Assembly (NCBI GenBank): GCA_022705405.1
Contig: JAKJEN010000014.1
Span: 1 to 33,958 of the forward strand
Origin: Planctomycetota bacterium
GTDB lineage: Bacteria; Planctomycetota; Phycisphaerae; Sedimentisphaerales; Anaerohalosphaeraceae
Reading direction: 5' to 3'
DNA: 33,958 bases
The position numbers were made by a program, and so were the translations under genes. Each line of letters starts with the position of its first letter. Within the stretch, counting starts at the first letter, position 1. The notes under the pieces are model-generated. The model was not told where the DNA came from, did no database searches, and was given only the letters and a program-made list of their open reading frames with translations. Below are positions 13,600 through 20,200 of the stretch, piece after piece.

Positions 13600-14067
13600 A
13601 TGAATCAAAACTTTGAGTACTTTCAGATTTCACAAAAAAGCCGTTATGCCATACGGGCTTTACTTCAACTGGCCCTTCTGGACAGCCGAGAACCGGTCGG
13701 CGTTAAAAAACTTGCTGATGCACAGGATATTCCATCACGATTTCTGGAAGTCATCCTCAGTGAACTTAGGCAGGGAGGGTTTGTTCTGTCTGTACGAGGA
13801 AAACGCGGCGGCTATATGCTTGCCCACCAGCCGAGGCAAATTACCATTGGCCAAATCATTCGTTTTGTTGAATCGGTACAAAACAAGCAGTTTTCTTGCG
13901 ATGGAATTTTCTCGCAACGAATCAAAGCCGGAGATTTCAGTGAAAATTGGCTTTTCAATCAAATTAACGGCGCTATTTCAGAGATCCTCGACGGCGTAAC
14001 ACTCGAGGAGTTGATTCGAAAAGAATCGGCCCATAAGGCTGCTTACGTGGAAAACTATGTAATTTAA
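13600..14067 (+). CDS. Rrf2 family transcriptional regulator, CymR-like
   Basis: The 155 residues fit the Rrf2 family. The winged helix-turn-helix occupies about residues 12-75 (KSRYAIRALLQLAL, IPSRFLEVILSELRQGG, wing VRGKRGGYMLA), followed by the dimerisation helix. Iron-sulfur members such as IscR and NsrR need three clustered cysteines; here only C100 is present, so it probably binds no cluster and resembles CymR, the cysteine-metabolism repressor. It directly precedes sulfate-reduction genes, which supports control of sulfur assimilation. The operator candidate at 13462-13492 suggests autoregulation. ATG 13600 has only a weak GAGA-type ribosome site. The family is secure; the signal sensed is inferred. 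Confidence 0.88.
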   Translation: MNQNFEYFQISQKSRYAIRALLQLALLDSREPVGVKKLADAQDIPSRFLEVILSELRQGGFVLSVRGKRGGYMLAHQPRQITIGQIIRFVESVQNKQFSCDGIFSQRIKAGDFSENWLFNQINGAISEILDGVTLEELIRKESAHKAAYVENYVI

Positions 14068-14121
14068 TTTTTTTGAATATATATCCTACTGTTGCCACGG
14101 GAATACAAGTAATCAAAAATT

Positions 14122-14343
14122 ATGGAAAGCCATTTAAGAAGCATATTTAAGGCGCTCAGTTGGCGGGCCAGCGGAACGGTAGTCACCTTTTTGATCGCCT
14201 GGCTGATTCTCGGTCAGGTTCAGGATGCCGTCAAGATCGGGGCTTTTGATACATTGATGAAGATCGGGGTGTTTTATTTTCATGAACGGCTTTGGAATCG
14301 TCTTCAGTTCGGCAAGCTCAAGCCGCCTGATTATCAAATTTAA
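14122..14343 (+). CDS. DUF2061 small membrane protein
   Basis: The 73 residues match the DUF2061 family: SIFKALSWRASGTVVTFLIAWLI, then a second hydrophobic stretch (AFDTLMKIGVFYFHERLWNRL). Two membrane helices are likely. Members of this family are often found next to, or fused with, sulfate-activation and sulfate-reduction genes, which matches its place between the Rrf2 regulator (54-nt gap) and the APS/PAPS reductase (39-nt gap). The molecular function is unknown; a role in sulfate or sulfite transport is a guess from context. Confidence 0.82.
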   Translation: MESHLRSIFKALSWRASGTVVTFLIAWLILGQVQDAVKIGAFDTLMKIGVFYFHERLWNRLQFGKLKPPDYQI

Positions 14344-14382
14344 GAGCAAGAAAAATACATTATATCCTTTGATGGAGGTACT

Positions 14383-15105
14383 ATGCTGAAAAATTATGCT
14401 CAGACAAACGTAAAAGAACTGGTTGAAGAACTTAATTTCGCCGAGAAAGTGGACCGATCTCTTACTTTGATCGAAGAGGCCTGGAAGGAATACGGCCGCC
14501 GACTTGTGGTTGCCAACAGTCTCGGAAAAGATTCGGTGGTTGTCTGGCATCTGGCCAAACAGGTCAGCCCTGATATCCCCGGCTTTATTGTCACTACGCG
14601 CTACAAACCCAAGGAGACCATTCAGTTTATGAATGAGCAGGCAGCGAAATACCCGGAACTGAAGATCTATAAAAACGATGTTCAGATCCCTGACAATCTT
14701 TATAAAACCCATCCCGACCGATGCTGCGATCTGTTGAAGGTTGATCCCACTCGCCGGGCGATTGAGGAAATGGATGTGGCCTGCTGGGTGACCGGCCTTC
14801 GCTGCACCGAAGGGCGAACCCGTACAGATTTTCAGGAAGTGGAAGAACGCGACGAAGGTCTGATCAAGCTTAATCCTGTTCTTATCTGGTATGAGCGGGA
14901 GATCTGGCAATATCTGGCTTTGTATCAGGTTCCCGTGAATCCTTTATATGCCAAAGGATATCGCTCTCTCGGCTGTGCGCCGTGCACCCAGATTGCTCAG
15001 GGAGCCGATGAGCGGGCGGGTCGCTGGATCGGTACCAGCAAATGCGGCGGAGAGTGCGGGATCCATACGCGGCCTCTGCGAGCGCCTGCCGGAGTAAAGG
15101 TATGA
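14383..15105 (+). CDS. cysH: Assimilatory APS/PAPS reductase, Fe-S type
   Basis: The enzyme reduces activated sulfate (APS or PAPS) to sulfite, using thioredoxin-type thiols. It has 240 residues. The PP-loop-type motif NSLGKDS lies at 45-51. A [4Fe-4S] motif is present as C114-C115 and C198-x2-C201, and the catalytic cysteine is in ECGIH (C225). The cluster cysteines indicate an APS-using enzyme rather than the cluster-free PAPS type. GGAGG sits just ahead of ATG 14383. It overlaps the sulfite reductase gene by ATGA, so the two consecutive steps are translated together. ATP sulfurylase is not in the window. Confidence 0.93.
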   Translation: MLKNYAQTNVKELVEELNFAEKVDRSLTLIEEAWKEYGRRLVVANSLGKDSVVVWHLAKQVSPDIPGFIVTTRYKPKETIQFMNEQAAKYPELKIYKNDVQIPDNLYKTHPDRCCDLLKVDPTRRAIEEMDVACWVTGLRCTEGRTRTDFQEVEERDEGLIKLNPVLIWYEREIWQYLALYQVPVNPLYAKGYRSLGCAPCTQIAQGADERAGRWIGTSKCGGECGIHTRPLRAPAGVKV

Positions 15106-16469
15106 CCGCTCAGACAAGACCAGCCGACCCGGTCCTTGCAGAGCCCCTTCCTTCTCTATCGCCTGCACGGCAGCTGGGCAGTTATGCCCAAAAGCAAGAG
15201 GGGCTGATGATGCAGCGAATTCCTCTGTTGGCCGGCCGGGTCGGCTGGAGCCAGTGGCGCACCATAGCGGAGCTGGCTGTTCGATACACACACTCTGCGC
15301 CGCTGCATCTGACTACGCGGCAGGATATCGAGTTGCATAATCTGCCGCGAGCGTCCGTATCCGCACTCTACCAGGAATTGCTCCAGGTCGGGATCAGTAC
15401 CTTTGGGGCCTGCGGCGATACAATCCGAAATATCACGGTAAATCCGGCCTGCGAGTTTGATCCTCAGGATTTTGATCTGCTGCCGCTGGCTCGACTGGTC
15501 AAAGACTATTTGCAGGAATGGGCAGCCGGCGGCGCTTTGCCCCGTAAATTCAAGGTCAGTTTTTCCGGCTGCAGGGATAACCACGCCTGCCCTTTCATCA
15601 GCGATCTTGGATTTGTCTGTCGTGCGGACGGGTTTTTTCAGGCCGTCGGGGCCGGATCGCTGGGCAGTCGGCCGCAGACAGGAATCTTTCTTTATGAAAA
15701 ATTATCGCCCGAACAGATTCTGCCCCTTTGTAAAGCGGCAATTGAAATGTTTGTCGAACTGGGCGACCGGCAAAACCGCCAAAAGGCCCGTCTGCGCCAT
15801 ATACGCCAGCGTCTGGGAGACCAGACTTTTAAGGAACAGTTAGAAAAGCGATTTCAAATCGCCCGACAGCGGCCCTGGCCGAAGGTCATCCTTTCTCGCG
15901 GACGTTCGGACTGCCGACGGCTTTATACATTACAAATCCCCGCAGGAGACTTGGCTCCTCATCTGGCCCTTGAACTGGCGCAAGCGGCTCAGGGGCAGGA
16001 CGCCTATCTTCGAATCAATCAGTCTCATGGGCTGGAACTGTACGGACCTCGGCTGTTTGCTTTGCCGAATGCATTGCTTGCGTTTGCGGATCTGCCTTGT
16101 GTAGTCGCCTGTCCGGGCGCTGCCGTTTGCCCAAGGGCCCTGGTCCACACAAAAGAGGCGGCCGTTCAGATCCAGAGGATGCAGGGTATCAATATAAGCG
16201 GAAAAAAAATTGCGCTGTCCGGCTGTCCCAACGGCTGTGCACAAAGCGCTGCGGCCGATATCGGCCTGATCGGGCGAATCAAAACAATCGATGGGCAAAA
16301 GAAGGAATGCTTCGACGTCTATCTGGGCGGAGAGAACGGACAAACCGATAAATTGGCGGAGTATGTTCAAACAGTTCCAGCCGAGCGGTTATCCCGCTGG
16401 TTTTTGGAAAGAACAGAAACAGTCAATGCCCAAAGTTATTCGGTAAATCCCGGCATTAGTTCCGGGTGA
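15102..16469 (+). CDS. Siroheme nitrite/sulfite reductase, hemoprotein
   Basis: The enzyme reduces sulfite to sulfide (six electrons) in cysteine synthesis; nitrite is the alternative substrate. ATG 15102 is chosen because it overlaps the cysH stop (ATGA), giving 455 residues; an in-frame ATG at 15042 would lie inside cysH. The [4Fe-4S]-siroheme cysteines are C337-x5-C343 (ACPGAAVCPRAL) and C375-x3-C379 (SGCPNGCAQ). Siroheme-contact motifs TTRQDIELHN (71-80) and CGDTIRN (104-110) are present. It is shorter than CysI (about 570) and close to ferredoxin-type or small assimilatory reductases. Its 3' end overlaps the convergent gene by 34 nt. Sulfite is favoured because of the cysH partner. Confidence 0.9.
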   Translation: MTAQTRPADPVLAEPLPSLSPARQLGSYAQKQEGLMMQRIPLLAGRVGWSQWRTIAELAVRYTHSAPLHLTTRQDIELHNLPRASVSALYQELLQVGISTFGACGDTIRNITVNPACEFDPQDFDLLPLARLVKDYLQEWAAGGALPRKFKVSFSGCRDNHACPFISDLGFVCRADGFFQAVGAGSLGSRPQTGIFLYEKLSPEQILPLCKAAIEMFVELGDRQNRQKARLRHIRQRLGDQTFKEQLEKRFQIARQRPWPKVILSRGRSDCRRLYTLQIPAGDLAPHLALELAQAAQGQDAYLRINQSHGLELYGPRLFALPNALLAFADLPCVVACPGAAVCPRALVHTKEAAVQIQRMQGINISGKKIALSGCPNGCAQSAAADIGLIGRIKTIDGQKKECFDVYLGGENGQTDKLAEYVQTVPAERLSRWFLERTETVNAQSYSVNPGISSG

Positions 16470-18456: not shown

Positions 18457-18701
18457 GGACATTGAGACGGAAAAAATGACTAAATTTTTAGAAAAACCCC
18501 TATCTATACGGCTATTTTACAGAAAATACGGTCTGTATGAAAAATGCCAGAATTGCGTTTAATGCGGTCTGTGTTTTGTCCGAAAGGATGAATGGTCAGC
18601 CCAGCGGCTGTTTAAAATACGACAGAGGGGATCAAAGGGCTGCTTGCAGAAGTTCTTGAAATGAATGAATGAGAAAAAACAATACACAGGAGATCAGTTT
18701 T

Positions 18702-20147
18702 ATGGCAGCGAAAAAGAAAACAGCCAAAAAAGGCGTCCGAAAACTTGCCCGAAAGGCCAGCCGCAGCGCCAAGCCGAAAACGCGCAAAACGGCTGCTCGC
18801 AAAGTCGCCAAGACATCGAGCAAGAGCAGGAAGACAACTCCTCGAAAAAAAAGCCGCGTTGTCGCAAAAAAGAAAACTTTTTCCGTGAAGGCCAAGGCAT
18901 CCGGGAAAACCCGGCGATCTGCCGTTAAGACCAGGGTTTCAAAAAAGACCCGGCCGGCCGTCAAAGCCAAAACAAAAGGAAAAGCCAGGACAGCGCCGAA
19001 AACCGCCGGCAAGCCGATGATTCCGGTACTGGATCTGGAAAAGTATCAGGTCAAGTCCGTCGCCGAAACCGGCGTCAAGGACAACTTTGTCGGTTCCACC
19101 CGTTATGCCTGGATCGGCAGCGGACAGTGCGGCGGCCGACTGGCCAAGGCGTTTTATGATCTGGGCTACAAGAAGGCCATTGCCGTCAATACCTCCCACC
19201 ATGATCTGGATCTGCTGGCGATTCCCGCCTCGCAAAAATTCCTGATGGATATCGGCGAAAAAGGGGCCGGCAAAAATATGATCCGCGGCCAGCAGGCGGT
19301 CAGCCAGTGGCGGCAGGACATTCAGCACCTGGCCCGCAAGACCTTCGGCACTGAGGTAGATCATGTGATGGTCTGCATCGGAGCCGGCGGCGGCACCGGC
19401 GGCGGCAGCGCAGCCGAACTGGTCAATATCGCCAGGGATTATGTCTATTCCATCGGCAAAAGCGACCCGAATAAGCGGGTTGGAGTCATCATGACGCTTC
19501 CGACAGCCGGCGAAGCCAATTCTCCAAAGGTCGCCGAAAACGCCTGGCAGGTTGCCACGGAAATGGGCAAACTGGCGTCCAAAGGGCTGATTTCTCCGCT
19601 GATTATCATCGACAATGAAAAGATCAGCCGGCTGTATCCGGGCAAGACCGTCCGGGAATTCTGGCCGAGTATTAATAACACCGTCGCGGGCATGTTTGAC
19701 GTTTTCAATCGGCTCAGTTCACTGAGCAGCCCCTATACCTCGCTGGATTCGGTGGATTACCAGAGCATTCTCAGATCCGGCGGCTGTGCGATCATGGGGC
19801 TGACCCGCGTCGAAAAGTTCAAAGATCGCTTTGCGCTCAGCAGCGCCGTCAAGCAGAATCTCGAAAAGACGCTGCTCAGCGACGGATTCAATCTGAGCAC
19901 CGCCCGCGTAGCCGGCTGTACGGTTGTCGGCGGCAAGCGGATGATGGCTCATACGCTCAATCTGCAGGACAACATTAATTTTGCGTTTGATGTGCTGGCG
20001 GACCTGGCCCCGCGGGCCACGATTCACCGGGGCATCTATGAAGATGGGCGAGAAGCGCTGCGGGTTTACACCCTCATCGGCGGACTGGATTTTCCGAAGG
20101 CCCGCATTGAGGAACTGAAGGCCGCACAGCTGGTCGCTGTGCCCTAA
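18702..20147 (+). CDS. Tubulin/FtsZ-like GTPase with histone H1-like tail
   Basis: ATG 18702 has AGGAGA 8 nt upstream and gives 481 residues; an in-frame ATG at 18669 has no such site. Residues 1-104 form a histone-H1-like tail of Ala/Lys/Arg/Thr repeats: 43 Lys/Arg and no Asp/Glu in the first 100. A tubulin/FtsZ GTPase domain follows from about 130. Its T1 loop IGSGQCGGR (138-146) is closer to the GQCG of eukaryotic tubulin than to FtsZ, and the tubulin signature GAGGGTGGGS lies at 227-236. A T5-like region follows (LPTAGEANSPKVAENAW), then a T7-like loop SLDSVDYQSILRSGG (347-361). There D352 is kept, while the FtsZ Asn and second Asp are replaced by S350 and S355. The fold is sure from the signature; binding to DNA through the tail, and a role in segregation, chromosome organisation or division, are inference. 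Confidence 0.85.
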   Translation: MAAKKKTAKKGVRKLARKASRSAKPKTRKTAARKVAKTSSKSRKTTPRKKSRVVAKKKTFSVKAKASGKTRRSAVKTRVSKKTRPAVKAKTKGKARTAPKTAGKPMIPVLDLEKYQVKSVAETGVKDNFVGSTRYAWIGSGQCGGRLAKAFYDLGYKKAIAVNTSHHDLDLLAIPASQKFLMDIGEKGAGKNMIRGQQAVSQWRQDIQHLARKTFGTEVDHVMVCIGAGGGTGGGSAAELVNIARDYVYSIGKSDPNKRVGVIMTLPTAGEANSPKVAENAWQVATEMGKLASKGLISPLIIIDNEKISRLYPGKTVREFWPSINNTVAGMFDVFNRLSSLSSPYTSLDSVDYQSILRSGGCAIMGLTRVEKFKDRFALSSAVKQNLEKTLLSDGFNLSTARVAGCTVVGGKRMMAHTLNLQDNINFAFDVLADLAPRATIHRGIYEDGREALRVYTLIGGLDFPKARIEELKAAQLVAVP

Positions 20148-20165
20148 TGGAAATACGCTCTTTTG

Positions 20166-20200
20166 CGCCGGATGCAGACCCTTGCATCCGGCGTTTTTTT
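20166..20200 (+). terminator. Rho-independent terminator after tubulin-like gene
   Basis: CGCCGGATGCA (20166-20176) and TGCATCCGGCG (20183-20193) make a perfect 11-bp stem with a 6-nt loop, followed by seven T. It lies 18 nt past the stop of the tubulin-like gene and should end its transcript efficiently. Confidence 0.9.

Follow-up and report, generated by a model that had tools for sequence, protein, structure and literature searches.

The planctomycete DNA analysed here, a stretch of 33,958 nucleotides hereafter called the window (Planctomycetota bacterium GCA_022705405.1, contig JAKJEN010000014.1, positions 1-33,958; order Sedimentisphaerales as per GTDB), encodes a tubulin-superfamily GTPase with a histone H1-like N-terminal tail, and we consider this protein a candidate for a hitherto undescribed sort of filament that organises or moves chromosomes. 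Among the prokaryotic tubulins described to date, contact with DNA is made via adaptors (TubR-tubC), or the filament positions a phage nucleus (PhuZ). Computation revealed a tubulin fold with intact GTP motifs, a tail conserved among relatives, paralogues in the same genomes and relatives on phage contigs. The open-access papers searched yielded no described system with the tailed-tubulin architecture, in agreement with the novelty proposed for this fusion in an earlier, sequence-only reading.

The tailed gene and its product

The gene occupies a single open frame across 18702-20147 of the forward strand, which translates into 481 aa. The features of the locus are as follows.

18688..18692, + strand: Shine-Dalgarno-like AGGAG, 9 nt 5' of ATG 18702 (sequence reading)
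18702..20147, + strand: coding sequence of the tailed (A-type) tubulin-superfamily GTPase, 481 aa, stop codon included (18702-20144 without stop) (translation, Pfam, AlphaFold)
18702..19016, + strand: polycationic disordered N-terminal tail, residues 1-105, 44 K/R, 0 D/E (composition, AlphaFold pLDDT < 50)
19017..19046, + strand: conserved N-terminal core motif, MIPVLDLEKY region, common to tailless paralogues and closer phage relatives
19101..20111, + strand (residues ~134-470): tubulin/FtsZ-fold core, residues about 130-475 (PF00091, AlphaFold, Foldseek)
19116..19136, + strand: T1 loop GSGQCGG, nucleotide binding (sequence motif, alignment)
19380..19409, + strand: T4 signature GAGGGTGGGS, nucleotide binding (sequence motif, alignment)
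19596..19625, + strand: T6 region PLIIIDNEKI (alignment)
19728..19763, + strand: T7 catalytic loop SPYTSLDSVDYQ; D349 and D352 match the FtsZ T7 aspartates (alignment)
20165..20194, + strand: intrinsic-terminator-like hairpin of 13 pairs followed by TTTTTT, 3' of the stop codon (sequence)

Inspection of the frame also revealed a longer alternative with ATG at 18669. We take ATG 18702 as the right start because of the AGGAG upstream of it and because the tailed proteins of relatives open with the same MAAKK/MTAKK. A tail arising from a wrong start or a frameshift, which figured in one of the two outcomes that the sequence-only reading had named as fatal to it, was ruled out by the AGGAG element, the starts and frames of relatives, five genus-mates encoding the tailed protein in one frame, and the dN/dS of the core. 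The latter was 0.02-0.10 within the genus, and by this measure the A-type core is under strong purifying selection.

The tailed gene stands alone, as its neighbours are divergent (CYTH, HAD) or convergent (GH106/GDSL). Elsewhere, its neighbours are rpe/accD or a GAF-like gene, and a pgk-rpe-X-accD neighbourhood is common to two families; judged from gene order, the setting appears to be chromosomal, with a housekeeping neighbourhood partly conserved between families. No consistent operon partner was found apart from tandem paralogues, and none pointing to chromosome segregation. In four genus-mates (G001 C32:112101, G003 C41:130161, G004 C8:88025 and G005 C3:53955), no more than about 4 kb separates an HU gene from the tailed tubulin, with signal peptidase genes between the two; the window does not share this arrangement. 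The position directly upstream of the tubulin gene is occupied, conserved across part of family f7, by a gene for a weakly GAF-like protein of ~215 aa whose N-terminus is basic (L103:8563-9219, L104:8586-9248, L076:5849-6505 and L094:1616-2245). The window also harbours, at 13600-16469, an assimilatory sulphur cluster made up of an Rrf2 regulator and, after it, genes for a PAPS-reductase-domain protein and a sulphite/nitrite reductase.

Pfam Tubulin (PF00091) matched residues 137-311 with 40.1 bits against a cut-off of 33 (E 6e-10), and an AlphaFold model based on 27 sequences gave a tubulin fold with core pLDDT mostly >90, so that the other outcome named as fatal, a predicted structure of some different fold, did not occur either. 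Foldseek comparison with the PDB returned 938 matches at E <= 0.001, the best being 4ei7 (TubZ, E 2.8e-22) and 2xka; ranks 1-15 were all TubZ, and CetZ (CetZ2 at rank 16) and FtsZ came after. By sequence also, the best solved relative was TubZ/RepX of B. cereus (4ei7, E 2e-9). Low complexity was ruled out as the source of the superfamily call, since the tail-free core alone finds the relatives and TubZ. Membership of the tubulin superfamily, as proposed from the sequence, was thus upheld by Pfam, AlphaFold and Foldseek, with the refinement that the nearest named family appears to be plasmid TubZ, in sequence as well as structure, and not tubulin or CetZ (the latter was left out of our tree). 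Three models scored below their thresholds, namely TIGR00065 (FtsZ; 45.2 bits, cut-off 295.2), PF13809 (Tubulin_2; 19.5 bits, gathering score 27, which a few relatives just exceed) and PF22453 (TubZ-like C-terminal domain; 14.6 bits, gathering score 26).

The two GTPase motifs that had been picked out earlier were located at residues 139-145 (GSGQCGG) and 227-236 (GAGGGTGGGS). Alignment showed T1, T3, T4, T6 and T7 to be intact in A-type and phage members, and D349 and D352 of T7 to be invariant in 27 rows. In FtsZ, the T7 aspartates complete the active site of the neighbouring subunit. With T1, T3, T4, T6 and the T7 aspartates all in place, GTP binding and head-to-tail filaments would be expected of the window protein.

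FtsZ shares with this protein the GTPase fold and the T7 D..D, although the window protein falls far short of the FtsZ cut-off; to our knowledge, FtsZ has no basic N-terminal tail. FtsZ-like 1 (Tubulin_2, PF13809), another member of the superfamily, has been reported in planctomycetes (Makarova and Koonin 2010, PMC2875224). It has a coiled-coil and a helical C-terminus, and its planctomycete forms carry N-terminal kinase fusions, not a basic N-tail (PMC2875224). TubZ, the GTPase of type III partition on Bacillus, Lysinibacillus and Paenibacillus plasmids, comes closer: its GTP motifs are alike and it too possesses a basic tail, which serves in partitioning DNA (PMC7762940). It differs in that it is plasmid-borne, is only 24-33% identical, and has the tail at its C-terminus, where TubR-tubC binds it and thereby brings plasmid TubZ to DNA (PMC7762940, PMC5322520).

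The tail of the window protein contains 31 Lys and 13 Arg in residues 1-105 and no Asp or Glu; the earlier count of 43 Lys/Arg and no acidic residue for the first 100 positions was exact. Residues 1-121 have pLDDT almost wholly <50 and no secondary structure in the AlphaFold model. A basic-tailed copy, with a tail of 48 to ~270 aa and 27-46% Lys/Arg, was present in 24 of the 28 carrier genomes, confirming that the tail is conserved among relatives, and nearly all of the few acidic residues in these tails sit where tail and core meet. As for the other four carriers, the gene meets contig ends in G009 and G022, G086 has a 19-residue basic start, and G071, a genome 54% complete, has tailless copies only. 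Pairwise identity within the genus was 36-88% for the tail and 83-99% for the core, and the dN/dS of the tail, where estimable, was 0.2-0.5 and hence relaxed relative to the core. By these comparisons, tail sequence and length drift fast while the charge persists. The MIPVLDLEKY-region motif, present in tailless members also, marks the point of tail addition. At the boundary of basic tail and core, a short FDFN-x-W motif, mostly after G-[ED], is conserved in family f7 and some members of f1 (for example L051, L052, L009 and L013); it is possibly a binding motif.

Repeats lengthen some of the tails, the one in G122 having many copies of an 11-residue KATKKSTASKP-type unit; no tandem repeats were found at the DNA level in the window's own tail. 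The H1-like tails of Chlamydia Hc2 likewise vary in length by Lys-rich repeats (PMC2848022). Hc1/Hc2, BpH1 and AlgP resemble the tails of the family in Lys/Ala/Thr/Pro composition and in repeat-driven length variation (PMC2848022, PMC9239181), and the window tail, a Lys/Ala-rich, acidic-free, disordered chain, is H1-like in character. Unlike the window protein, however, Hc1/Hc2, BpH1 and AlgP have no GTPase domain, and Pfam search of six tails gave no family for five and one chance-level match. When the tail was sought as an element common to other proteins of the same genome, one weak match only was obtained, inside a sigma-factor-like gene.

Paralogues and the probable ligand of the tail

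A second, unlinked copy that lacks the long tail is present in all six genomes of the genus (G000 C22:19697-20725, L002, in the window's genome; L022 and L024-L027 in genus-mates). Alignment revealed that T1, T3 and T4 of this copy are ruined and T7 (FD.MD) is kept in five of the six, G002 retaining more. It is fast-evolving within the genus; in other genera the second copy is better preserved and sometimes in tandem (G014, G022). Its pattern of lost and kept loops makes the genus copy a candidate pseudo-GTPase filament cap.

In family f7, a tailless A-type core was found in three genomes. Two of these, G071 and G073, have a tandem partner with AAA_lid_14 at its C-terminus (E 4e-17 and 2e-17, respectively), as in NtrC-type activators. 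G095 has an A-type copy whose tail is 48 residues long, and after it a partner with the AAA lid. The G071 partner also has a Fis-type HTH_8 (23.1 bits, cut-off 22), a cut-off reached by this protein only, the G073 and G095 fusions having the AAA lid alone. The paralogues in which a tubulin fold is fused to the AAA lid of sigma-54 activators are located as follows.

L074:5709-7286 (G071)
L073:4726-6519 (G073)
L075:5879-7579 (G095)

We know of no description of a tubulin fused to a transcription-factor tail. The f7 fusions are suggestive of a DNA-binding module having been joined to the family for a second time, and as such would be the best evidence at the level of sequence for DNA as the ligand.

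No adaptor-like (TubR) gene was seen beside the tailed gene in the window or in the neighbourhoods examined. With no adjacent adaptor seen and an H1/Hc2/AlgP-like tail on the protein itself, the simplest mechanism would be direct, nonspecific holding of DNA all along the filament. We give an even chance to the protein being a chromosomal, TubZ-like, GTP-dependent filament former whose own nonspecific DNA tether replaces TubR/tubC. We infer DNA binding from the composition of the tail and the independent helix-turn-helix fusion, and the tail probably holds the filaments to DNA. In such a mechanism, the core would bind GTP and assemble into head-to-tail polymers, in which each GTPase site is completed by T7 aspartates from the adjoining subunit. 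Every subunit would contribute a disordered Lys/Arg tail of ~105 residues, making the filament an array of H1-like chains, which would hold it nonspecifically along the nucleoid and so stand in for the TubR/tubC adaptor. Chromosomal DNA would then be bundled, moved or spaced as GTP is turned over. The tailless paralogue may take part in many carriers, and in the genus the paralogue with its GTP loops mostly lost and T7 kept could dock on the GTP-loaded end, trigger hydrolysis and block further addition.

The tail may instead tether another polyanion, such as polyphosphate granules, RNA/ribosomes or the anionic inner membrane, with the filament positioning that cargo, and we regard this as unlikely though still worth weighing, as polycationic disordered tails can also bind RNA, polyphosphate and anionic membranes. 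The gene divergent from the tailed one in the window, and at the same position in genus-mates L032 and L101, encodes a CYTH domain, a fold known for tri/polyphosphate substrates, but this linkage is limited to the genus. In Pseudomonas, the spacing of polyphosphate granules depends on the granule-associated protein AlgP, which has an H1-like KPAA tail (PMC9239181), chlamydial Hc2 binds RNA too (PMC2848022), and TubY, a partner of TubZ, uses one C-terminal tail for membranes and DNA (PMC7762940). However, a typical membrane anchor would form a helix, which the model does not predict for this tail, and the f7 paralogue with the helix-turn-helix points to DNA.

Relatives on phages and distribution in the order

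Outside the order, the family finds its nearest relatives in tubulins encoded on contigs of tailed phages, with identities of up to 49%. Scanning IMG/VR contigs with a profile detected 46 relatives, of which 29 have 34-49% identity; none of the relatives carries a basic tail. No relatives were found among INPHARED phages. Neighbouring genes on the phage contigs include portal (L119, L122), baseplate/tail-like (L114), terminase-like together with PhoH (L135), and PhoH (L113, L116) genes. The phage tubulins L112-L140 and BFVD A0A6J5RW92 ('FtsZ Cell division GTPase', uncultured Caudovirales phage) have the same full-length core with all GTP motifs, and the closer ones share the P.LD.E N-terminal motif of the window family. 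They differ in being tailless, in lying beside portal, terminase-like, tail or PhoH genes, and in forming a separate clade: in an unrooted tree without distant outgroups, viral and cellular sets were split by a branch with 100/99 support. L112-L140 (the L112 contig is 241 kb) make up a tailed-phage tubulin group distinct from PhuZ, and L141-L157 (IMG/VR, up to 293 kb) are more distant phage tubulins of ~30% identity with an acidic DFDF.EAYDD-type N-terminus. PhuZ of the nucleus-forming jumbo phages, also a phage tubulin with a DNA-positioning filament, is more distant than TubZ, with 14% identity by structure and a very long branch in a tree that included it; PHROGs gave no match for the family.

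These relatives at 34-49% identity, together with a patchy distribution and a fast-evolving paralogue with intact T7, would suit a captured phage or plasmid tubulin engaged in mobile-element conflict, for instance by poisoning, through co-assembly, the filament with which an infecting phage positions its DNA, or by acting against a prophage in the same genome. We consider this improbable, as the A-type core is under strong purifying selection, the adjoining genes identified are housekeeping and not defence genes, in neighbourhoods partly conserved between families, and the cellular and viral sets are separate clades; the capture would therefore be old, or its direction reversed.

The family was found in 28 of the 161 genomes of the order, spanning three of its families, and was absent elsewhere in a class sample of 397 genomes (rest of class) and in a phylum sample of 392; other phyla were searched with close-relative patterns only. 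As the genomes are mostly metagenome-assembled, absence in a single genome is weak evidence, although 66 from the order reach 90% completeness or more, with the family present in 14. The patchy distribution indicates a function dispensable in the order. With the FtsZ equivalog model, none of 159 genomes of the order, the window's own among them, was over the cut-off, as against 13 of 14 controls, so the lack of canonical FtsZ that the sequence-only reading mentioned for most planctomycetes applies to this order. Phycisphaerae divide in a binary-fission-like manner without FtsZ, and the protein driving this is an open question (PMC6952346). That the tailed tubulin is the missing cytokinetic filament, replacing FtsZ in Phycisphaerae with its tail sensing the nucleoid, is very improbable, as 133 of the 161 genomes of the order, near-complete ones included, lack the gene altogether, so that division does not need it, no member was found in the rest of the class sample, and neither a membrane anchor nor an adjoining divisome-type partner was found. 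Since most of the order is without it, the tailed tubulin is no general answer to FtsZ-less division, and the division role suggested earlier is unlikely to be general.

Implications of a tubulin with a proposed DNA tether of its own

If the tailed tubulin is indeed a filament held on DNA by its own tail, FtsZ-less bacteria might possess a chromosomal, tubulin-family machine for organising or segregating DNA, with adaptor-free H1-like tails and a pseudo-GTPase paralogue that ends or paces the filament through its T7, related to, and perhaps domesticated from, phage tubulins. We propose this fuller picture only tentatively and hold it to be possible rather than likely. Core and tail are separable, which makes testing in vitro cheap. 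In a phylum that raises questions about how FtsZ was lost and about what powers division and DNA segregation, the built-in H1-like tail would constitute a direct link from filament to chromosome. The protein also ties a cellular family to a set of uncharacterised tailed-phage tubulins.
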